From an uncultured Chitinophagales bacterium (GTDB lineage: Bacteria; Bacteroidota; Bacteroidia; Chitinophagales; JAHDHT01): a DNA stretch of 35,085 nucleotides. The translations under genes were made by a program, and so were the position numbers. Below are positions 1,945-26,636 of this stretch, piece after piece; the stretch's first letter is position 1; each line of letters opens with the position of its first letter. The stretch is taken from contig CALHDG010000011.1 in NCBI GenBank assembly GCA_938023075.1, positions 1 to 35,085 of the forward strand, read 5' to 3'. The notes under the pieces are model-generated. The model ran no database searches and was not told the DNA's origin. It saw nothing but the letters and a program-made list of their open reading frames with translations.

Positions 1945-4722
1945 ATGCACAAATATTACACATTTATATTTATATTTATATCAACTATATTATTTTCGCA
2001 AGACTACCCTTATCCTCAGCAACCTCTAAATCTATCTACCGTAAGTTCAGATAGTTTATCATTTAGCTGGAAAGGAGCGACTAATTTTACCAGTTATACA
2101 CTTGAGATTTACGATTGCAATTATTATCCAGGTGCTAATTTCAATTCCATTAATTTACAAGATTTTGTATTGTCTTTTGATAGCAGAGTTTCGCAAGGTG
2201 AAGAAGTGTCGGGTTTTACACACCACGAAAAAAGACCGGGCACTTTTGTAGGCGTTGAAGACAGTGGTACAGATTTACTTTTTCATACATTTGACTTTAA
2301 TGCAAATTCAACTTATCCGGTTTCTAATTTTCAAGGGAGCGATTTTGAAGGAGTCACTTATTTACATAACGACTATTTTGCTATTATGGAAGAACGTTTT
2401 GGTTATGTGCATTTTATAAAGTTAATCTACAATAACAACACTTTAACTAATGTTACTTTAGAAAATACTTTGATTTTAAGTGATCCACTAATTTCAGGGC
2501 AAAATGATGGTTTTGAAGGGGTAACGTACAATCCGGTAAGTGGTAAAATGTATGCTAGTAAAGAATACAATCCGGTAACCTTATTTGAATTTGATGCACC
2601 AACTGCTCCTAATTTTTCTGGCACCCTAACGGCAAGTCAACCTTTTGATATTAACCAAGTAAACTGGACTCCCCAAGATGCTTCTGGCTTGTATCATTTC
2701 GGATTAAACAAAGCCATGTCTGCAACAAAAACTGGAGAACATCTCTTAATTTTAAGTAAAAACTCGAAAGCCATTTACGAAACAGATTTAAATGGCAACT
2801 TAATTAGTCAGTTAAATTTTGATATAAGTGGCATATTAGGCTCTATAGTGGGCGGTGAATTTAAAGCAGAAGGCATCACCTTTCACGATGGGATAATTTG
2901 GATTGCCGAAGACAATGATGGTTTATACATCGGCTTTCAAAATTTTAATCATGAAGATCCTGTAGCGATTACCAATAACCTAGTACATACGCAAAGCGGC
3001 ATTAACACAACCGGTATAAGTATACCCGCTTGTTTGTTAGAGGCGCAAACCGAATATTGCTGGAAAATTACCGCGCAAACATCAAGTGGGCAAAGTATTG
3101 AAAGTGAATACTATAGCTTTACCACAGGCAATTTAAATCAAGGTGCTGCTTGCAATGATAATAACCTCTGCACCACTAATGATGTATTTGATGATAATTG
3201 CAATTGTGCCGGCACGCCCGTTGCCGATACTGATAATGACGGAACTTGTGATGCTGCCGACCAATGCCCCAACCTAAATAATAATTTAATAGGTACCGCT
3301 TGCGATGATGGCGATTCTAGCACCATAAACGATGTATATACAAACGCTTGTAATTGTAGTGGAACGCTTCCAATAAACAACATTTGTATAGCTATAAATA
3401 ATGGAAATGACGATGTAGAAGAATATGGTAGCAATGGAACCATGTATTTTAACAGTACCGATTTAGAGTTTGTGTATGATGGCAATAATAGAGGCAACCA
3501 AACCATTGGGCTTCGATTTAATAATGTACCCGTTCTTCAAGGAGTTGACATTTATGATGCCTATGTTCAGTTTACTACTGATGAAACCAATACAGCATCT
3601 ACCAGCCTAACCATAAAAGGAGAAGACACCGACCATTCAGATGCTTTTACGGCTGTAGATCAAAATTTATCATCCCGTGCAAAAACAAGTGCTTTGGCAA
3701 ATTGGAATCCACCTAATTGGACGCAAGTTGGCCAATCCGGTATGGCTCAACGAACTCCGGACATTTCTAATATTATTCAGGAAATTGTTAACCGGCAAGG
3801 ATACAGTGCCGGCAATTCAATAACTTTAATCATTAATGGAAATGGTAAACGAACAGCCGAGTCATATAACGGATCAGCAGCTCAAGCCCCACAATTATGT
3901 ATTGAATACAGTACCATAGTTGCTTGCCCGGCACAAGGTACTGCTTGTAACGACGGAAAGAGCTGCACCACCAATGACATTATGATAGACAACAATTGTA
4001 CCTGTGAGGGAACTCCGGTAGCCATTTGTAATACCGATATTTGCCTGGGTGATGTTGGCATAGTTAATCCAATTAACTTATGTAACTGCATTGTAACACA
4101 ACAGCAAATAATGGGCTGCACAAATGTAAATGCATGTAACTATAATCCACAGGCAAACTGTAACGATGGTAGTTGTCAAAATGCTCCCTCTTGTAATACT
4201 AACGCTTGCGCAGGTAATATTGAAATATTAGATCCAAGTAATCCATGCAATTGCATCGTAATACAAACTCAAGTAAATGGCTGTACCGATGCAAATGCTT
4301 GCAATTATAATCCTCAAGCAAACTGTAACGATGGCTCCTGTCAAAGTGCTCCTATGTGCAATACCAATTTTTGCATAGGTGATGTTGAAATAATAGATCC
4401 TAATAATCCTTGCAATTGTATGGTAAGTGAAGCTCAGGTTAATGGTTGTATTGAAGTGAATGCATGCAACTACACACCATCTGCAAATTGTAATGATAAT
4501 TCGTGCACCTACGCACCATCGTTTGTATTAACTCATCAAAATCCAACTATTATTTCTGGTGGAACTTACCAAGCACAACACACTATTTTATCTAATATTA
4601 ATTTTACCGATGTCGCAACAGTTAACTATTTTGCAGAACAACGCATTGAATTGCAAAACGACTTTTCGGTTCCTGCCAATAAAATGTTTTCAGCAGTTAT
4701 ACAACCGGTGGTTTGTGAATAG
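1945..4722 (+). CDS. Secreted multidomain protein: FN3 split by SdiA-regulated-type beta-propeller, Cys repeats, coathanger C-terminus
   Basis: A 925-residue exported protein with a signal peptide at about residues 1-19 (ends LFSQ). Residues about 20-60 look like the first half of an FN3 domain (LSFSWKGATNFTSYTLEI). About 65-335 is a propeller-like region with repeated motifs FEGVTY, DASGLYHF and AEGITF, as in SdiA-regulated/phytase-like propellers. About 345-395 looks like the second half of FN3 (TEYCWKITA, YYSFTT). Then come Cys/Asp-rich CNDNN..CTTND repeats with a TDNDGTCDAADQCP thrombospondin-3-like stretch. About 485-655 is a DVEEYGSNG...LCIEY module that I recognise only as common in secreted Bacteroidota proteins. 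Three GCT(D/N)..ACNYNP Cys repeats follow. The last 55 residues (GGTYQAQHTI, RIELQNDFSVP) resemble the 3-coathanger stack domain. Role probably extracellular or cell-surface; substrate unknown. A truncated paralogue lies at 33714. Confidence 0.85.
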   Translation: MHKYYTFIFIFISTILFSQDYPYPQQPLNLSTVSSDSLSFSWKGATNFTSYTLEIYDCNYYPGANFNSINLQDFVLSFDSRVSQGEEVSGFTHHEKRPGTFVGVEDSGTDLLFHTFDFNANSTYPVSNFQGSDFEGVTYLHNDYFAIMEERFGYVHFIKLIYNNNTLTNVTLENTLILSDPLISGQNDGFEGVTYNPVSGKMYASKEYNPVTLFEFDAPTAPNFSGTLTASQPFDINQVNWTPQDASGLYHFGLNKAMSATKTGEHLLILSKNSKAIYETDLNGNLISQLNFDISGILGSIVGGEFKAEGITFHDGIIWIAEDNDGLYIGFQNFNHEDPVAITNNLVHTQSGINTTGISIPACLLEAQTEYCWKITAQTSSGQSIESEYYSFTTGNLNQGAACNDNNLCTTNDVFDDNCNCAGTPVADTDNDGTCDAADQCPNLNNNLIGTACDDGDSSTINDVYTNACNCSGTLPINNICIAINNGNDDVEEYGSNGTMYFNSTDLEFVYDGNNRGNQTIGLRFNNVPVLQGVDIYDAYVQFTTDETNTASTSLTIKGEDTDHSDAFTAVDQNLSSRAKTSALANWNPPNWTQVGQSGMAQRTPDISNIIQEIVNRQGYSAGNSITLIINGNGKRTAESYNGSAAQAPQLCIEYSTIVACPAQGTACNDGKSCTTNDIMIDNNCTCEGTPVAICNTDICLGDVGIVNPINLCNCIVTQQQIMGCTNVNACNYNPQANCNDGSCQNAPSCNTNACAGNIEILDPSNPCNCIVIQTQVNGCTDANACNYNPQANCNDGSCQSAPMCNTNFCIGDVEIIDPNNPCNCMVSEAQVNGCIEVNACNYTPSANCNDNSCTYAPSFVLTHQNPTIISGGTYQAQHTILSNINFTDVATVNYFAEQRIELQNDFSVPANKMFSAVIQPVVCE

Positions 4723-7119: not shown

Positions 7120-7257
7120 TAGGATGCTATAGGCTATGTTATATTTATATAAACACCTAATTTAGTAATGTTAATTGTTTCTCCATCAGTTTTTTAACTT
7201 TCAAAGGGTTAATTTTTTTTCCTTTTTCATTATATGAAACAATGTGAGTACTGGTGC

Positions 7258-7288
7258 TTTGTTAATTTAACAGCTAAGCATATATTTG
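7258..7288 (+). promoter_or_regulatory. Strong Bacteroidota-type promoter for the 7482-8570 unit
   Basis: TTTG at 7258-7261 is followed after exactly 19 bases by TATATTTG at 7281-7288, the consensus -33/-7 arrangement for Bacteroidota. A second overlapping -7 candidate, TATTTTTG, is at 7290-7297. The next gene starts at 7482, so the transcript would carry a leader of about 185-190 nt. The 362-base gap 7120-7481 contains no other gene I can support. The leader holds only tiny ORFs (e.g. 23 codons from 7355) with no recognisable content. Confidence 0.65.
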
Positions 7289-7481
7289 CTATTTTTGCAT
7301 GTAAAAACTTGCTTTTCAAAAATTTTATTTTGAGGCACTTTTATTTATGAAATTATGTTTATATTGTTGAGGAGTATTGCGTTTTTCAAGTCAATAAAAT
7401 TTCAATTAAAAACATTTAATAAATAAAAGCGTAATTAACAGTACACTACCTAAATATTAATTGGATTAAATAATAAAAGCA

Positions 7482-21879: not shown

Positions 21880-24147
21880 ATGAAGATTAGAAAAGAAGAC
21901 GCTTTAGAATATCATAGCAAAGGCAGGCCCGGTAAAATTGAAGTGATACCAACAACTGCGACTAAAACACAAAGAGACTTATCGCTTGCCTATTCTCCCG
22001 GTGTAGCTATTCCGGTTTTAGCCATTGCCGAAGACGAAAATAAAGTATACGATTACACGGCTAAAGGTAATTTGGTGGGGGTAATTTCTAACGGAACAGC
22101 CATACTCGGTTTAGGCAATAAAGGACCAGCGGCTTCCAAACCCGTGATGGAAGGAAAGGGCATCTTATTTAAAATATATGCCGATATTGATGTATTTGAT
22201 ATTGAGGTGGACACCACCGATGTAGAGCACTTCATTAGTGTAGTAAAAGCCTTAGAGCCCACTTTTGGCGGCATCAACTTAGAAGATATTGCCGCACCTG
22301 AAGCCTTTGAAATTGAAGAACGATTAAAAGCCGAATTAAACATACCAGTAATGCACGATGACCAACACGGCACCGCTATTATATCTGCGGCAGCCTTGTT
22401 GAATGCTTTAGAGTTAGCCGGCAAAAAAATTGGCGAAGTAAAAGTGGTGGTTTCCGGAGCAGGAGCGGCGGCTATTTCTTGTTTAAAAATGTGGTTGCTC
22501 ATTGGGGTTAAAAAAGAAAACATTTATGTATTCGATATTGACGGCTTGGTTTCAACCGACCGGACTGATTTAGATCCTTATAAAGCTTTATTTGTTTCTG
22601 AGCCCATTTACAAAAACATAAGTGAGGCTTTGGTTGAGGCAGATGTGTTGTTAGGACTTTCGGTAGGCAACATTATTACCAAAACTATGATTCAACCGAT
22701 GGCAGCTAAACCCATCATTTTTGCTTTAGCTAACCCTAACCCGGAAATACCTTATGACGATGCCGTTGCCGCCCGCCCCGATGCAATAGTCGCCACCGGA
22801 AGATCAGATTATCCCAATCAAGTGAATAATGTTTTGGGCTTCCCCTATATTTTTAGAGGTGCCTTAGATTGTAGAGCAACCGGCATTAACGAAGCCATGA
22901 AGTTAGCAGCTACCAAGGCTATTGCCGCACTAGCCAAAGAACCCGTACCCGAAATTGTTAATGTGGCTTATGGTAAAAAAAGCATGGTGTATGGCAATCA
23001 GTATATTATCCCCAAACCGGTTGACCCGCGCTTATTAGAAACCATTGCTCCGGCAGTTGCCCAAGCTGCTATGGAAAGTGGTATTGCTAAAAACCCCATT
23101 CCGAATTGGGAGGCATATAAAATAGAACTGAACAAACGCCTTGGATTAGATAATCAAATTCAACGGGTAATTAGCAGCAAAGCCAGGCGCAACCCTAAGC
23201 GAGTAGTGTTTGCCGAAGGGGAGAATATCAATATATTGAAAGCGGCTCAAATTGTAAAAGACCAAGGTATTGCAGAACCTATTTTATTGGGCAAAAAAGA
23301 CACCATATTAGCTTTAGTAGAGGAGTACGATTTAGATTTGACTGACTGCCGTTTAATTGATCCAAGAGATGAAATTGCCCTTGAAACCAGATTAACTTAT
23401 GGGCAATGGTTTCACGAAAAACGCCAACGAAGAGGTTTAACTTTAAGAGATGCTCAACAGCTCATGCGGCAACGAAATTATTTTGCATGTATGATGGTGC
23501 AATTTGGAGAATGCGATGCCATGATTTCTGGACAGACCGGAAGCTATCCGGACACCATTCGTCCAGCCTTACAAATTATTGGTAAACGAGATGATGTTTC
23601 GCGGGTTGCCGGTATGTATATTATGTTAACAAAAAAGGGTCCATTGTTTTTTGCAGATACCACAGTTAATGTAAACCCCAATGAAGATGAGTTGGTTGAT
23701 ATTGCCCTATTAGCCGCCCAAGAGATTAGAAACTACAACGTAACTCCAAAAATAGCGATGTTAAGTTATTCAAACTTTGGTTCTGTTAGCGATCAAGCTT
23801 CCAATAAAGTGAGCAATGCCGTTAAAAAAATTAAAGCCCGCATGCCTCACTTAATTATAGATGGTGAAATGCAAGCCAATGTCGCCTTCGATAATGCTTT
23901 GCTAAAAAAGAAATATCCTTTTAGCGATTTAGTTGATAAAGATGTGAACACACTAATTTTTCCTAATCTTTCATCGGGTAATATTGCCTATAAGCTGATA
24001 GCCAAACTAGGTGCTGCCGAAGCTATTGGACCCATTTTGCTCGGCTTAAAAAAACCCGTACACGTTTTACAAATGGGTAGTTCTATTAGAGAAATTGTGA
24101 ATATGGCAACTATAGCCGTAGTAAATGCACAACGAGTGGTGGGCTAG
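21880..24147 (+). CDS. maeB: NADP-dependent malic enzyme with C-terminal phosphotransacetylase-like domain
   Basis: A 755-residue fusion of the MaeB type. The N-terminal malic domain (residues about 10-150: LAYSPGVAIPVLAIAEDENK, ISNGTAILGLGNKGPAASKP, EDIAAPEAFEIEERL, HDDQHGTAII) oxidatively decarboxylates malate to pyruvate. The NAD(P)-binding domain (about 160-390) shows VVVSGAGAAAISCLKMW, FALANPNPEIPYDD and NQVNNVLGFPYIFRG. The C-terminal third (about 430-755) is PTA-like (RVVFAEGENINILKAAQIV, SGQTGSYPDTIRPALQI). In characterised MaeB proteins this part is regulatory (acetyl-CoA sensing) rather than catalytic. Monocistronic, with repeat-rich DNA on both sides. Confidence 0.96.
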   Translation: MKIRKEDALEYHSKGRPGKIEVIPTTATKTQRDLSLAYSPGVAIPVLAIAEDENKVYDYTAKGNLVGVISNGTAILGLGNKGPAASKPVMEGKGILFKIYADIDVFDIEVDTTDVEHFISVVKALEPTFGGINLEDIAAPEAFEIEERLKAELNIPVMHDDQHGTAIISAAALLNALELAGKKIGEVKVVVSGAGAAAISCLKMWLLIGVKKENIYVFDIDGLVSTDRTDLDPYKALFVSEPIYKNISEALVEADVLLGLSVGNIITKTMIQPMAAKPIIFALANPNPEIPYDDAVAARPDAIVATGRSDYPNQVNNVLGFPYIFRGALDCRATGINEAMKLAATKAIAALAKEPVPEIVNVAYGKKSMVYGNQYIIPKPVDPRLLETIAPAVAQAAMESGIAKNPIPNWEAYKIELNKRLGLDNQIQRVISSKARRNPKRVVFAEGENINILKAAQIVKDQGIAEPILLGKKDTILALVEEYDLDLTDCRLIDPRDEIALETRLTYGQWFHEKRQRRGLTLRDAQQLMRQRNYFACMMVQFGECDAMISGQTGSYPDTIRPALQIIGKRDDVSRVAGMYIMLTKKGPLFFADTTVNVNPNEDELVDIALLAAQEIRNYNVTPKIAMLSYSNFGSVSDQASNKVSNAVKKIKARMPHLIIDGEMQANVAFDNALLKKKYPFSDLVDKDVNTLIFPNLSSGNIAYKLIAKLGAAEAIGPILLGLKKPVHVLQMGSSIREIVNMATIAVVNAQRVVG

Positions 24148-24271
24148 TGCTTTAAGGGAAGAGAAAAAAATAACTTTACATGCTTCCTTTACAATTTTAT
24201 GATATACTCTGTTATAGATGTTAAATTTATTTTCTCATCATTTCTAAACCATAAAGTAGTAGATGTTTTTT

Positions 24272-24386
24272 TGAAGCGAAACTATTTAACATTAAAAGAA
24301 CACCCGTCCCGCTTTCCGCTAAATCTTTTTAAGCCTTGCTTCATTGCCTGCGCTTCATAAAAAGAACACCGCTGCAATTCTATCTA
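24272..24386 (-). repeat. R1 element copy C
   Basis: On the minus strand: degenerate left box (TAGATAGAATTGCAGCGG), hairpin arms TCTTTTTA (24358-24365 complement) and TAAAAAGA (24324-24331 complement), right box TTTAGCGGAAAGCGGGAC, spacer, and GTTTCGCTTC plus an A-run. The outer CCCCG of the left box is lost in this copy. It lies about 125 bases after the maeB stop and is followed directly by two R2 copies. Confidence 0.8.
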
Positions 24387-24416
24387 AGCGTCTTTCTGCA
24401 TTTTGAATGTCATTAA

Positions 24417-24603
24417 TTTATAAATTAAAAATAAGTCAACATTCATTATTCGTTAATCGATATTCGTTGTTCATTAAATGGTCATTCAAAAAAATATCGA
24501 ATATCGAACACCGAACACCCAATTTTGAATGACGAATTTTTCCATTCGAAAAACAACACTTAGCTGTTAAACAACCCAATGCACTTTAGTGCTGTTGACT
24601 TGA
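24417..24603. repeat. R2 repeat copy b
   Basis: First of two tandem R2 copies. It shares AAGTCAACATTCATTATT, CGATATTCG, AATATCGAATATCGAACA, CCCAATTTTGAATGACGAAT, AACAACACTTAGCTG and the GCACT-TT-AGTGC palindrome with copies a and c. It ends at CTGTTGACTTGA and lacks the trailing CTAAAC end seen in copies a and c. Confidence 0.85.
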
Positions 24604-24807
24604 TTTATACATTAAAAGTAAGTCAACATTCATTATTTGTTAATCGATATTCATTATTCATTAAAGGGTCATCCAAAAAAATATCGAATATCGAACATCG
24701 AACACCCAATTTTGAATGACGAATTTTTCGATTCGAAAAACAACACTTAGCTGCTAAACAACCCAATGCACTTTAGTGCTGTTGGCTTGGAAATCAGGGC
24801 TAAACTT
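24604..24807. repeat. R2 repeat copy c
   Basis: Second tandem copy, with the same landmarks as copy b plus a trailing GGAAATCAGGGCTAAACTT. That end resembles the reverse complement of the R1 left end in copy E (TTTAGCCCCGAT). CGATATTC and GAATATCG within it can pair as a perfect 8-bp stem. Confidence 0.85.
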
Positions 24808-25204
24808 CAAACTTCATTCCTATCTAAAAACAAATTCAATTTTAGCTAATGTAACATATACCAGTTTACTTAGCGCATAGCCCACTAATTAACTGCCCAA
24901 ACAAACCCTATTGAAATTGCAATATTAACTTATAAATAAAATTTTAAATTTGTTAATAAATAAAAAAAATATGTAAAATAGTGGCGGCTTTCTTTTTTTC
25001 ATCTTACTTTAGCATTAGTAATTTGAAATACAACATTATACAATTTTTGAAACGCTAACGACTTTAGTATGTAAATGCAACGCATGAAGAACCATTTTAA
25101 AATAGTATAATTTTAAATGGATGCCATAGGTATGCTTTTATCTACAATTGAAACGCGATATATTTTTTAGCTAAATAAGTATACAGGAGTAAGCCGAAAA
25201 TCCG
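24808..25204. other. AT-rich gene-free stretch before the double-glycine peptide
   Basis: About 400 bases with only very short ORFs (7-17 codons), none with a recognisable product. I see no tRNA-like structure and no exact TAnnTTTG element. A TTTG at 25022-25025 followed by TACAATTTTTG at 25039-25049 is off-spacing and not called. This segment presumably holds the promoter of the 25264 peptide gene. Confidence 0.5.
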
Positions 25205-25223
25205 GTCTTTAAATTTTAAAGAC
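25205..25223. other. AT-rich inverted repeat upstream of the peptide gene
   Basis: GTCTTTAAA-T-TTTAAAGAC is a perfect 9-bp palindrome with one central base, 40 bases before the ATG at 25264. No T-run follows, so it does not look like a terminator. It could be an operator or a leader hairpin. Confidence 0.4.
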
Positions 25224-25263
25224 GCATAAAGTGAGTAGGCACAAATAATTTAATCATATAATC

Positions 25264-25338
25264 ATGTACGAAATTAAAAATTTGAATACCGTTGAAGGTG
25301 GTGCAGGAATAATAGTAATTGTTGATCCTGTTTTTTAA
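25264..25338 (+). CDS. Short peptide with double-glycine-type leader (bacteriocin- or pheromone-like candidate)
   Basis: A 24-codon ORF that a length filter would miss. The leader reads MYEIKNLNTVEGG and the remainder AGIIVIVDPVF. Val-Glu-Gly-Gly preceded by spaced Leu/Ile residues (I4, L7, V10) is the pattern recognised by C39-peptidase ABC exporters in class II bacteriocins, ComC-like pheromones and Bacteroidota GG-leader natural products. The predicted mature peptide is 11 residues, very hydrophobic, with one Asp and one Pro. A terminator-like hairpin follows 92 bases downstream, implying a dedicated short transcript. No C39 transporter, modifying enzyme or immunity gene is in the window; the nearest gene is a convergent alpha/beta hydrolase. 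It may be chance or a decayed precursor. Confidence 0.5.
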   Translation: MYEIKNLNTVEGGAGIIVIVDPVF

Positions 25339-25430
25339 GAATCATTACTACATCTTAAGTGTAAAAACCATTAAGATAATCTGTTTTCAGACCTCTTAAT
25401 TTAAATATATACTACACTTATTAATCAAAC

Positions 25431-25470
25431 AAATCTCACATTAATCAATATGGTTTATGTGAGGTTTTTT
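25431..25470 (+). terminator. Intrinsic terminator downstream of the peptide gene
   Basis: AAATCTCACAT (25431-25441) pairs with ATGTGAGGTTT (25457-25467; one T-G wobble) around a 15-base loop, followed by more T (run through 25470). It is the only convincing terminator between 24147 and 25555 and reads in the plus direction, so it probably ends the 25264 transcript. Confidence 0.8.
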
Positions 25471-25554
25471 GTATGTCTAAGAGCCAATTGTTTTTTGAAA
25501 GGAAACTTTTAAAAAGAGAGTATTAGAAAGAAGATGATATGTTTAATAAATATA

Positions 25555-26268
25555 TTACTGCTTATGTTCACTTAACAGATGGGCAATTAACTCCAACACT
25601 TCTTTATCGAAACCCATACCCAAATGCGCACTATCTACTTCAATGTTTTGATGTAAGTCATTTTTCTCATCCTCTATGCACAATGCCCAAGGTACAATAC
25701 CATCTTTTTTTGAGTAAATGGCAGTAGTAGGGATGGGCGCGGGGCGTGGAATACTGGCTAACAAATCAGGATCTATTTCATCGGCATGTTTACCGTTTAG
25801 CAAACGGTATGCCCACTTGGCATAATTTGCTTTATTTAAACCTTTAAAAGGGGAGGCAAGTGTAATTATCTGACGAATTTTGCGGGGTTTACGCTTTGCA
25901 ATTTCACGACAATAAATACCACCTAAGCTCCAACCGATTAAGCTTACTTTTTGCCCATGGCTTTCTTGTAATTTTTCAACTTGGGTAATCATTGTTTCTA
26001 CATCTTCAATTCTGCCATAATTTCTGCCTAACTTCCAATCGTAAGAAGTGTAGCCCATTTTATTGACAAAATCTCTCAGCGGCTTGGTCGATAATTCGCC
26101 AGCCAAAAAACCTGGAATGACTAAAACCGGATGTCCATCACCTTTAACTTGCGGTTGAAACTCGTTTCTGAATTTTATGGAACTAGCTCGATCATAAACT
26201 GAACGTAAACCTTCTGTTATAAAAAGTAACAGCGATGGTCGTTGAATAACTTGTGAATTGCTCATCAT
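25555..26268 (-). CDS. Alpha/beta hydrolase (lipase/esterase-like)
   Basis: 237 residues. HPVLVIPGFLAGELST is the oxyanion-hole strand and loop, VSLIGWSLGGIYC is the nucleophile elbow (Ser114), Asp189 lies in YSKKDGIVPW and His215 in DSAHLGMGF, giving a complete Ser-Asp-His triad. No signal peptide is evident, although the N-terminal PSLLLFITEGLRSVYD segment is amphipathic. The frame opens at GTG 26277, but the tandem ATGs at 26268 and 26265 are more likely starts. The physiological substrate is unknown. It is upstream of nothing on its strand, and its 3' end faces the peptide gene. Confidence 0.88.
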   Translation of the reverse strand: MMSNSQVIQRPSLLLFITEGLRSVYDRASSIKFRNEFQPQVKGDGHPVLVIPGFLAGELSTKPLRDFVNKMGYTSYDWKLGRNYGRIEDVETMITQVEKLQESHGQKVSLIGWSLGGIYCREIAKRKPRKIRQIITLASPFKGLNKANYAKWAYRLLNGKHADEIDPDLLASIPRPAPIPTTAIYSKKDGIVPWALCIEDEKNDLHQNIEVDSAHLGMGFDKEVLELIAHLLSEHKQ

Positions 26269-26511
26269 TACTTGCACAATATTACTAATATTCTTTAAAT
26301 TTAGACGAAAAACTTTACATTCGGTTAGTATAATTAAATGTTGAATGAAGATTTATTGATTTTGTATGAGCTATTATGTTGATAATCATTTGTTTAGAGG
26401 TGAAATGTTTTGTATTGATAATGTGTTAGATAACTTTAGTGACTGATGAATAATTGATTAGCTTTCAAGTAAATGATATGTTGCCTTCCACGAAAAACCG
26501 AGTTTTGATAT

Positions 26512-26636
26512 CTAGCCCCGATTGCAACGGTTATGCTATTTTGCCGCAAAGATTATGCAGAATGGCAAATAGCATTTGAGTGGAAAGCGGGACCCAAAGT
26601 TTGTGCGCGTTGTAAGGTTTCGCTTCAAAAAAAACA
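26512..26636 (+). repeat. R1 element copy D
   Basis: Left box TAGCCCCGATTGCAACGGTT (26513-26532), hairpin arms ATGCTATTT (26533-26541) and AAATAGCAT (26567-26575) extended by GCC/GGC after a one-base bulge, right box TTGAGTGGAAAGCGGGAC, spacer, GTTTCGCTTC and an A-run. The element ends directly against the 3' end of the SpoIIE phosphatase gene. The remaining 26278-26511 gap is AT-rich with no gene seen. Confidence 0.88.

Follow-up and report, generated by a model that had tools for sequence, protein, structure and literature searches.

A 24-codon double-glycine-leader gene behind a pseudoknot RNA element in an uncultured Chitinophagales bacterium, a putative source of an exported mini-peptide

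A 24-codon gene of an uncultured Chitinophagales bacterium looks real, and belongs to a small group of Bacteroidota genes for very short, predictedly exported peptides that seems not to have been described before. The gene lies in the window (the whole stretch of DNA analysed, 35,085 nucleotides). The explanation we favour, with somewhat better than even confidence, is that it encodes an exported mini-peptide, processed by a C39 peptidase and made from a locus unlinked to its exporter under the control of an upstream RNA, with a signalling role preferred to that of a bacteriocin. The mini-peptides are assigned to no family in NCBIfam, and the literature searched, outside which many subscription papers lie, contained neither a description of them (weak evidence of novelty) nor a mention of DUF805b RNA, the RNA type found upstream.

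The mini-ORF occupies positions 25264–25338 of the plus strand (24 codons; ATG at 25264, TAA at 25336–25338) and encodes the precursor MYEIKNLNTVEGGAGIIVIVDPVF, which divides into a 13-aa leader ending in Gly-Gly (MYEIKNLNTVEGG; codons 25264–25302) and an 11-aa core without cysteine (AGIIVIVDPVF; codons with stop, 25303–25338). Start, stop and translation agree with the original prediction, as does its description of an otherwise gene-free 1.4-kb stretch: between a malic enzyme/phosphotransacetylase gene (21880–24147, plus strand) and an alpha/beta-hydrolase gene (25555–26277, minus strand), positions 24148–25554 carry no further gene of at least 80 aa. The same intergenic stretch holds a 187-bp unit in two tandem copies that are 94% identical (24416–24789). 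A Flavo-1 RNA (RF01705, 45.2 bits) is present in the window at 26510–26598 (plus strand), and other copies in this genome lie near L010 2435–2521 and L006 15981–16074. No histidine kinase/response regulator pair adjoins the mini-gene in the window. Blastn against a plasmid collection gave no match; scans of IMG/VR with the leader pattern and with the element pattern also gave none, and thus no link to phages, and no HlyD was found in IMG/VR.

Behind the ORF lies an intrinsic terminator (CTCACAT...ATGTGAG with a T-run; 25435–25470, plus strand). The region 25425–25475 folds at −16.7 kcal/mol (z = −5.35), and none of 200 shuffled sequences was equally stable. The terminator that had been placed at 25431–25470 is therefore real as a fold, despite a simple terminator scan that reported none, presumably because of a mismatch in the stem. 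No clear Bacteroidota promoter was found, and an E. coli-type promoter scan returned chance numbers only. We estimated how often such an ORF arises by chance: when the intergenic stretch was dinucleotide-shuffled 1000 times, 6.4% of the shuffled sequences contained one or more ATG-initiated mini-ORFs with GG in a suitable place, and the window has four such ORFs. A lone GG mini-ORF is weak evidence, and on its own is not above chance; with its paralogue and the upstream RNA that both share, the mini-ORF exceeds chance.

In the organism's own genome (6.1 Mb, 288 contigs, 97% complete), the 24-mer has a sole other match (MSAIKNLNTVEGGPIELVEF; contig C56; 77% over 13 aa), which belongs to a 20-codon ORF with the leader MSAIKNLNTVEGG and the core PIELVEF. 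The motif IKNLNTVEGG is identical in both leaders; among these ten shared codons just 2 nt differ, both at synonymous third positions, and the similarity stops exactly at the GG codons, beyond which the cores are dissimilar (p = 0.36–0.72). Synonymous-only changes in the leader, with similarity ending at the GG, are what one would expect if selection acts on the leader and leaves the core free. C39 substrates follow a rule of hydrophobic residues at positions −4, −7 and −12 (PMC7018657); the window leader has V, L and Y there, and the paralogue V, L and S. A DUF805b-type RNA precedes both ORFs, ending 22–23 nt before the ATG. A search of 199 genomes of the order, among which the family is represented by a single other genome, found no orthologue of the window 24-mer, so that the evidence for conservation comes from the paralogue and from analogous loci. 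Two weak matches in the order (E 0.26 and 0.76; 41–69% identity; frames of 76 and 565 aa) were judged to be chance. About 2 kb upstream of the C56 mini-gene lies the gene of a lone LytTR-domain protein, and a common ~120-bp sequence (..RFFDIQVKKRRLSGAKTSIFNEVDRKISK..) lies near the C56 and C106 mini-genes (L006 ~7230–7370 and L140 ~3270–3405), in opposite orientation relative to the RNA element at the two sites.

The inverted repeat reported 40 nt upstream of the ATG is present (GTCTTTAAATTTTAAAGAC; 25205–25223, plus strand), and is part of a larger RNA element (25184–25241, plus strand): a DUF805b-type pseudoknot with an inserted hairpin, in the 5′ leader of the mini-gene. Each half of the element matches RF02914, in the same order as there (18.2 and 9.2 bits; GGAGUAAGCCGAAAAUCC and AAAGUGAGUAGGCA), and the conserved sequence of both halves is present together with the P1 stem. 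At 18.2 bits the window element does not reach the gathering cut-off of RF02914 (35.6 bits) because of its inserted hairpin; DUF805b copies without the insert in the same genome reach 45.7 bits. Models built from the window element score it at 68–69 bits, by construction, and its exact two-part pattern occurs twice in the genome and in none of 59 relatives. Many phylum-level matches of model R2, those in family f38 (CGGGACGGGGCCGAAAATCCCGTCC...), lack the GAGUAGG end and look unrelated.

We examined covariation in an alignment of 45 elements from many Bacteroidota, from which the hairpin of insert-type rows had been cut out beforehand. The P1 stem pairs GGA (25186–25188) with TCC (25201–25203), with two-sided changes at all three pairs; rows with a 13-nt loop stand one base off at P1 and so count against it. 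In the pseudoknot, the loop GCC (25193–25195) pairs with GGC (25238–25240); 98.5% of cells are paired, with exchanges among GC, AU and CG and between CG and UA. For the whole structure (3-bp stem plus 3-bp pseudoknot), 93.7% of cells are paired, with 22 double-sided changes against 4.2 expected; no covariation score as high was obtained in 500 shuffles, and slid controls were far lower. The inserted hairpin was read from the sequence and is absent from ordinary DUF805b; at C56 (GTCTTTCGAGAC) and C106 (GTCGAGAGAC) it has another sequence but is still a hairpin.

The window element ends about 22 nt before the ATG (median of the set, 21 nt), and the great majority of DUF805b copies lie 12–34 nt upstream of a coding start, so the RNA behaves as a 5′ UTR element. 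Three copies in the genome exceed the cut-off and several further, probable ones score below it; genes for lipoproteins or secreted proteins follow most of these copies. Insert-type copies number four (window, C56, C106 and C32): the C106 copy is followed by a 22-codon ORF without GG (MNQTKGISMKNNVIILIEIEPE) and a terminator-like hairpin, and the C32 copy has no usable ORF behind it. Elsewhere, a tandem pair of DUF805b elements precedes a single start codon (L047, L048 and L054), and at L045 and L058 the element stands before 155–160-aa proteins with a common MLAGGW...GPLWDP and possibly a GG-type N-terminus. We know of no function assigned to the DUF805b family.

The gene had been called an orphan, with no maturase or exporter nearby, and a search for a C39-peptidase ABC transporter elsewhere in the genome had been proposed. 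Locally the description stands, as the window contains neither; genome-wide it does not. In the Peptidase_C39 search a single match exceeded the cut-off. It lies about 190 bp behind the C56 mini-ORF and is the genome's only C39 ABC exporter (L006 7892–10066), itself followed by the gene of an HlyD-family protein. In this assembly the exporter frame contains one in-frame TAG (near L006 8048), which separates the catalytic Cys of the C39 domain from its catalytic His and is either a base-call error or a nonsense mutation; the system may consequently be impaired in this organism.

Only three of the other genomes sampled, all Bacteroidia (G098, G834 and G786), yielded orthologues of the exporter, which are intact and 53–59% identical to our organism's protein or that of G098 (59% between these two; 77% between G834 and G098). 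A search of the 19 other genomes of G098's family did not recover the G098-type exporter. In G098 the order is DUF805b, a 180-aa GG-leader protein, C39 ABC and HlyD; in G834, DUF805b (46.2 bits) is followed by two GG-leader ORFs, one for a 190-aa protein and one for a 40-aa precursor with a 10-aa core (GPIITEDIVF), and then by C39 ABC and HlyD; and in G786, a 47-aa GG precursor, C39 ABC and HlyD, without DUF805b. The window and G834 cores resemble each other when anchored at the C-terminus (p = 0.005), but we make no claim from this result, which comes from one among many comparisons.

Scanning 85,000 species genomes with a sequence pattern for insert-type loci revealed two further clear cases, L079 and L073; matches in Spirochaetaceae, Woeseia, UBA981 and Pedobacter sp. 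ASV12 (L078) look coincidental and were discarded. At L079, in a fourth member of the Bacteroidia besides our organism, the insert-type element precedes MKKLSVKKQRTVVAGGDHTYGW and a terminator-like hairpin; the next ORF resembles a C39 exporter at its start (KPFPFIRQTGMMECGTTSLA) and is HlyD at its end, and we read it as a remnant of the same exporter operon. A GG-leader ORF thus lies directly upstream at four of four exporter loci and at the L079 remnant, with the RNA at four of these five; the leaders mostly follow the −4/−7/−12 rule, that of L079 fitting at −4 only. L073 (1174–3655, minus strand) combines an insert-type element with a 39-aa Cys/GG peptide, a radical SAM protein similar to peptide maturases, and an M42-like peptidase, and is a candidate RiPP cluster.

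The larger GG-leader proteins of G098 and G834 continue into a Hint/intein-like domain (TIGR01445 for G098, 27.4 bits against a cut-off of 24.5). Leader and Hint domain are common to the two, and the stretch from GG to IDGC differs (PIDPFAL versus VIIIQDIV), the variable part between GG and Hint domain being 8–10 aa long. This variable core looks as if it lies between two processing devices, the C39 peptidase and the Hint cysteine; if the Hint domain cleaves itself, as we infer, the arrangement suggests an unusual maturation route for a short exported peptide. Among 395 genomes of the class, the only GG-Hint protein was that of G834 itself. The GG-leader proteins with a C-terminal Hint/intein-like domain, encoded at L139 991–1533 and L147 3868–4440, lie upstream of C39 exporters.

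These observations are consistent with the following mechanism. Positions 25184–25470 would form a stand-alone transcription unit for the mini-peptide, in which the ~58-nt H-type pseudoknot RNA probably tunes translation or stability. The ORF would yield the 24-aa precursor, whose 13-aa leader would be recognised by the C39-peptidase ABC exporter encoded on C56; cleavage after Gly-Gly would release the 11-aa core, which may act as an extracellular, pheromone-like signal. A short hydrophobic core of slightly acidic character speaks for an extracellular signal rather than a membrane-active bacteriocin; this role is the weakest step of the mechanism. The predicted GG-leader gene with a transcript of its own is well supported by the leader-conserving paralogue beside a C39 exporter and by the −4/−7/−12 residues, as well as by the shared 5′ RNA, the terminator and the GG-leader ORFs before orthologous exporters. 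Counting against the mechanism are the TAG in the exporter, the dissimilar cores of window gene and paralogue, the failure to find an orthologue in the order or a clear promoter, and the insert-type copies at C106 and C32 that precede a peptide without GG or no ORF.

The same gene and export could instead deliver a small bacteriocin, another antagonistic peptide or a modified RiPP. The characterised GG peptides of Bacteroidota that have such exporters are bacteriocins (bacteroidetocins; PMC6671954), and at L073 the insert-type element precedes a Cys-containing ORF and a radical SAM protein. We nevertheless consider an antagonist or RiPP unlikely, as the cores here have 7–11 residues, a net charge of −1 to −2 and no cysteine, unlike bacteroidetocins (42 aa, four Cys), and no recognisable immunity or modification gene lies beside the window mini-gene or the C56 mini-gene.

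Rather less likely, in our judgement, is a scenario in which the C56 gene was duplicated and the copy in the window, functional at first, is now decaying or silent and lacks a working exporter. The in-frame TAG in the sole C39 exporter and the C32 RNA copy without a usable ORF point in this direction, and the reduction of the L079 exporter to a C39–HlyD fusion indicates that loss recurs in this family. On the other hand, the window copy retains an intact ORF and leader, an intact pseudoknot at the same spacing and an intact terminator, and the leader has changed only synonymously.

That the functional product is the RNA itself, either a structured small RNA or a regulatory 5′ transcript whose uORF is a passenger or an attenuator, we regard as improbable to a high degree. 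The strong conservation of the pseudoknot, the terminator, and the retention of the RNA at C106 and C32 with a different or missing ORF would fit such a product, but the 5′ UTR-like position of DUF805b, the conservation of the leader at the protein level up to the GG, and a window with nothing downstream to attenuate argue against it. A chance ORF, for which the frequency of GG mini-ORFs in shuffled sequence speaks, is largely refuted by the paralogue, the shared RNA and the exporter linkage, and its probability is close to negligible.

Beyond the exported mini-peptide itself, we tentatively entertain a wider peptide-communication system in Bacteroidota, possible though doubtful on present sequences, in which dispersed mini GG peptides with 6–11-aa cores would share an exporter and a pseudoknot RNA that stands before many other genes for secreted proteins as well, with cores fused to a self-cleaving Hint domain in sister lineages. 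The loci link DUF805b to GG-leader genes with C39 exporters as well as to lipoproteins and secreted proteins, which amounts to a testable regulon. As gene callers miss peptides so short, the RNA element may serve as a finding aid in Bacteroidota, where, to our knowledge, peptide signalling is hardly known.

Among known systems, the short hydrophobic pheromones of the SHP/Rgg type (RRNPP) have a short aliphatic core with an acidic residue, like the window core, but are not GG-processed by C39 domains. With DUF805b RNA (RF02914, clan CL00115), the window element shares both consensus halves, P1, the pseudoknot and the place 5′ of a start codon, and differs by the extra hairpin of ~12–25 nt between the halves. 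Bacteroidetocins combine a GG leader of 15–16 aa, Cys-containing cores of 42–48 aa and a double-glycine-peptidase ABC exporter (PMC6671954). A short GG leader and an exporter of this kind in Bacteroidota are common to both systems; the window core, in contrast, has 11 aa and no cysteine, and the transmembrane protein and usual thiol oxidoreductase of the bacteroidetocin operon have no counterpart here. Compared with GG peptides and their C39 ABC exporters (ComC/BlpC of streptococci, and rtg), the precursors are far shorter (20–24 aa, with a 13-aa leader and a 7–11-aa core), an HlyD partner of the Gram-negative kind is present, a pseudoknot RNA lies upstream, and no two-component system is adjacent. 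The GG leader, the hydrophobic −4/−7/−12 positions and a paralogue adjoining a C39 ABC exporter, albeit one with a TAG in its frame in this assembly, are what the window gene has in common with these systems, in which mutational loss of an exporter is likewise known (BlpAB frameshift; PMC7595303); by sequence it agrees with them, and export of its product is predicted.
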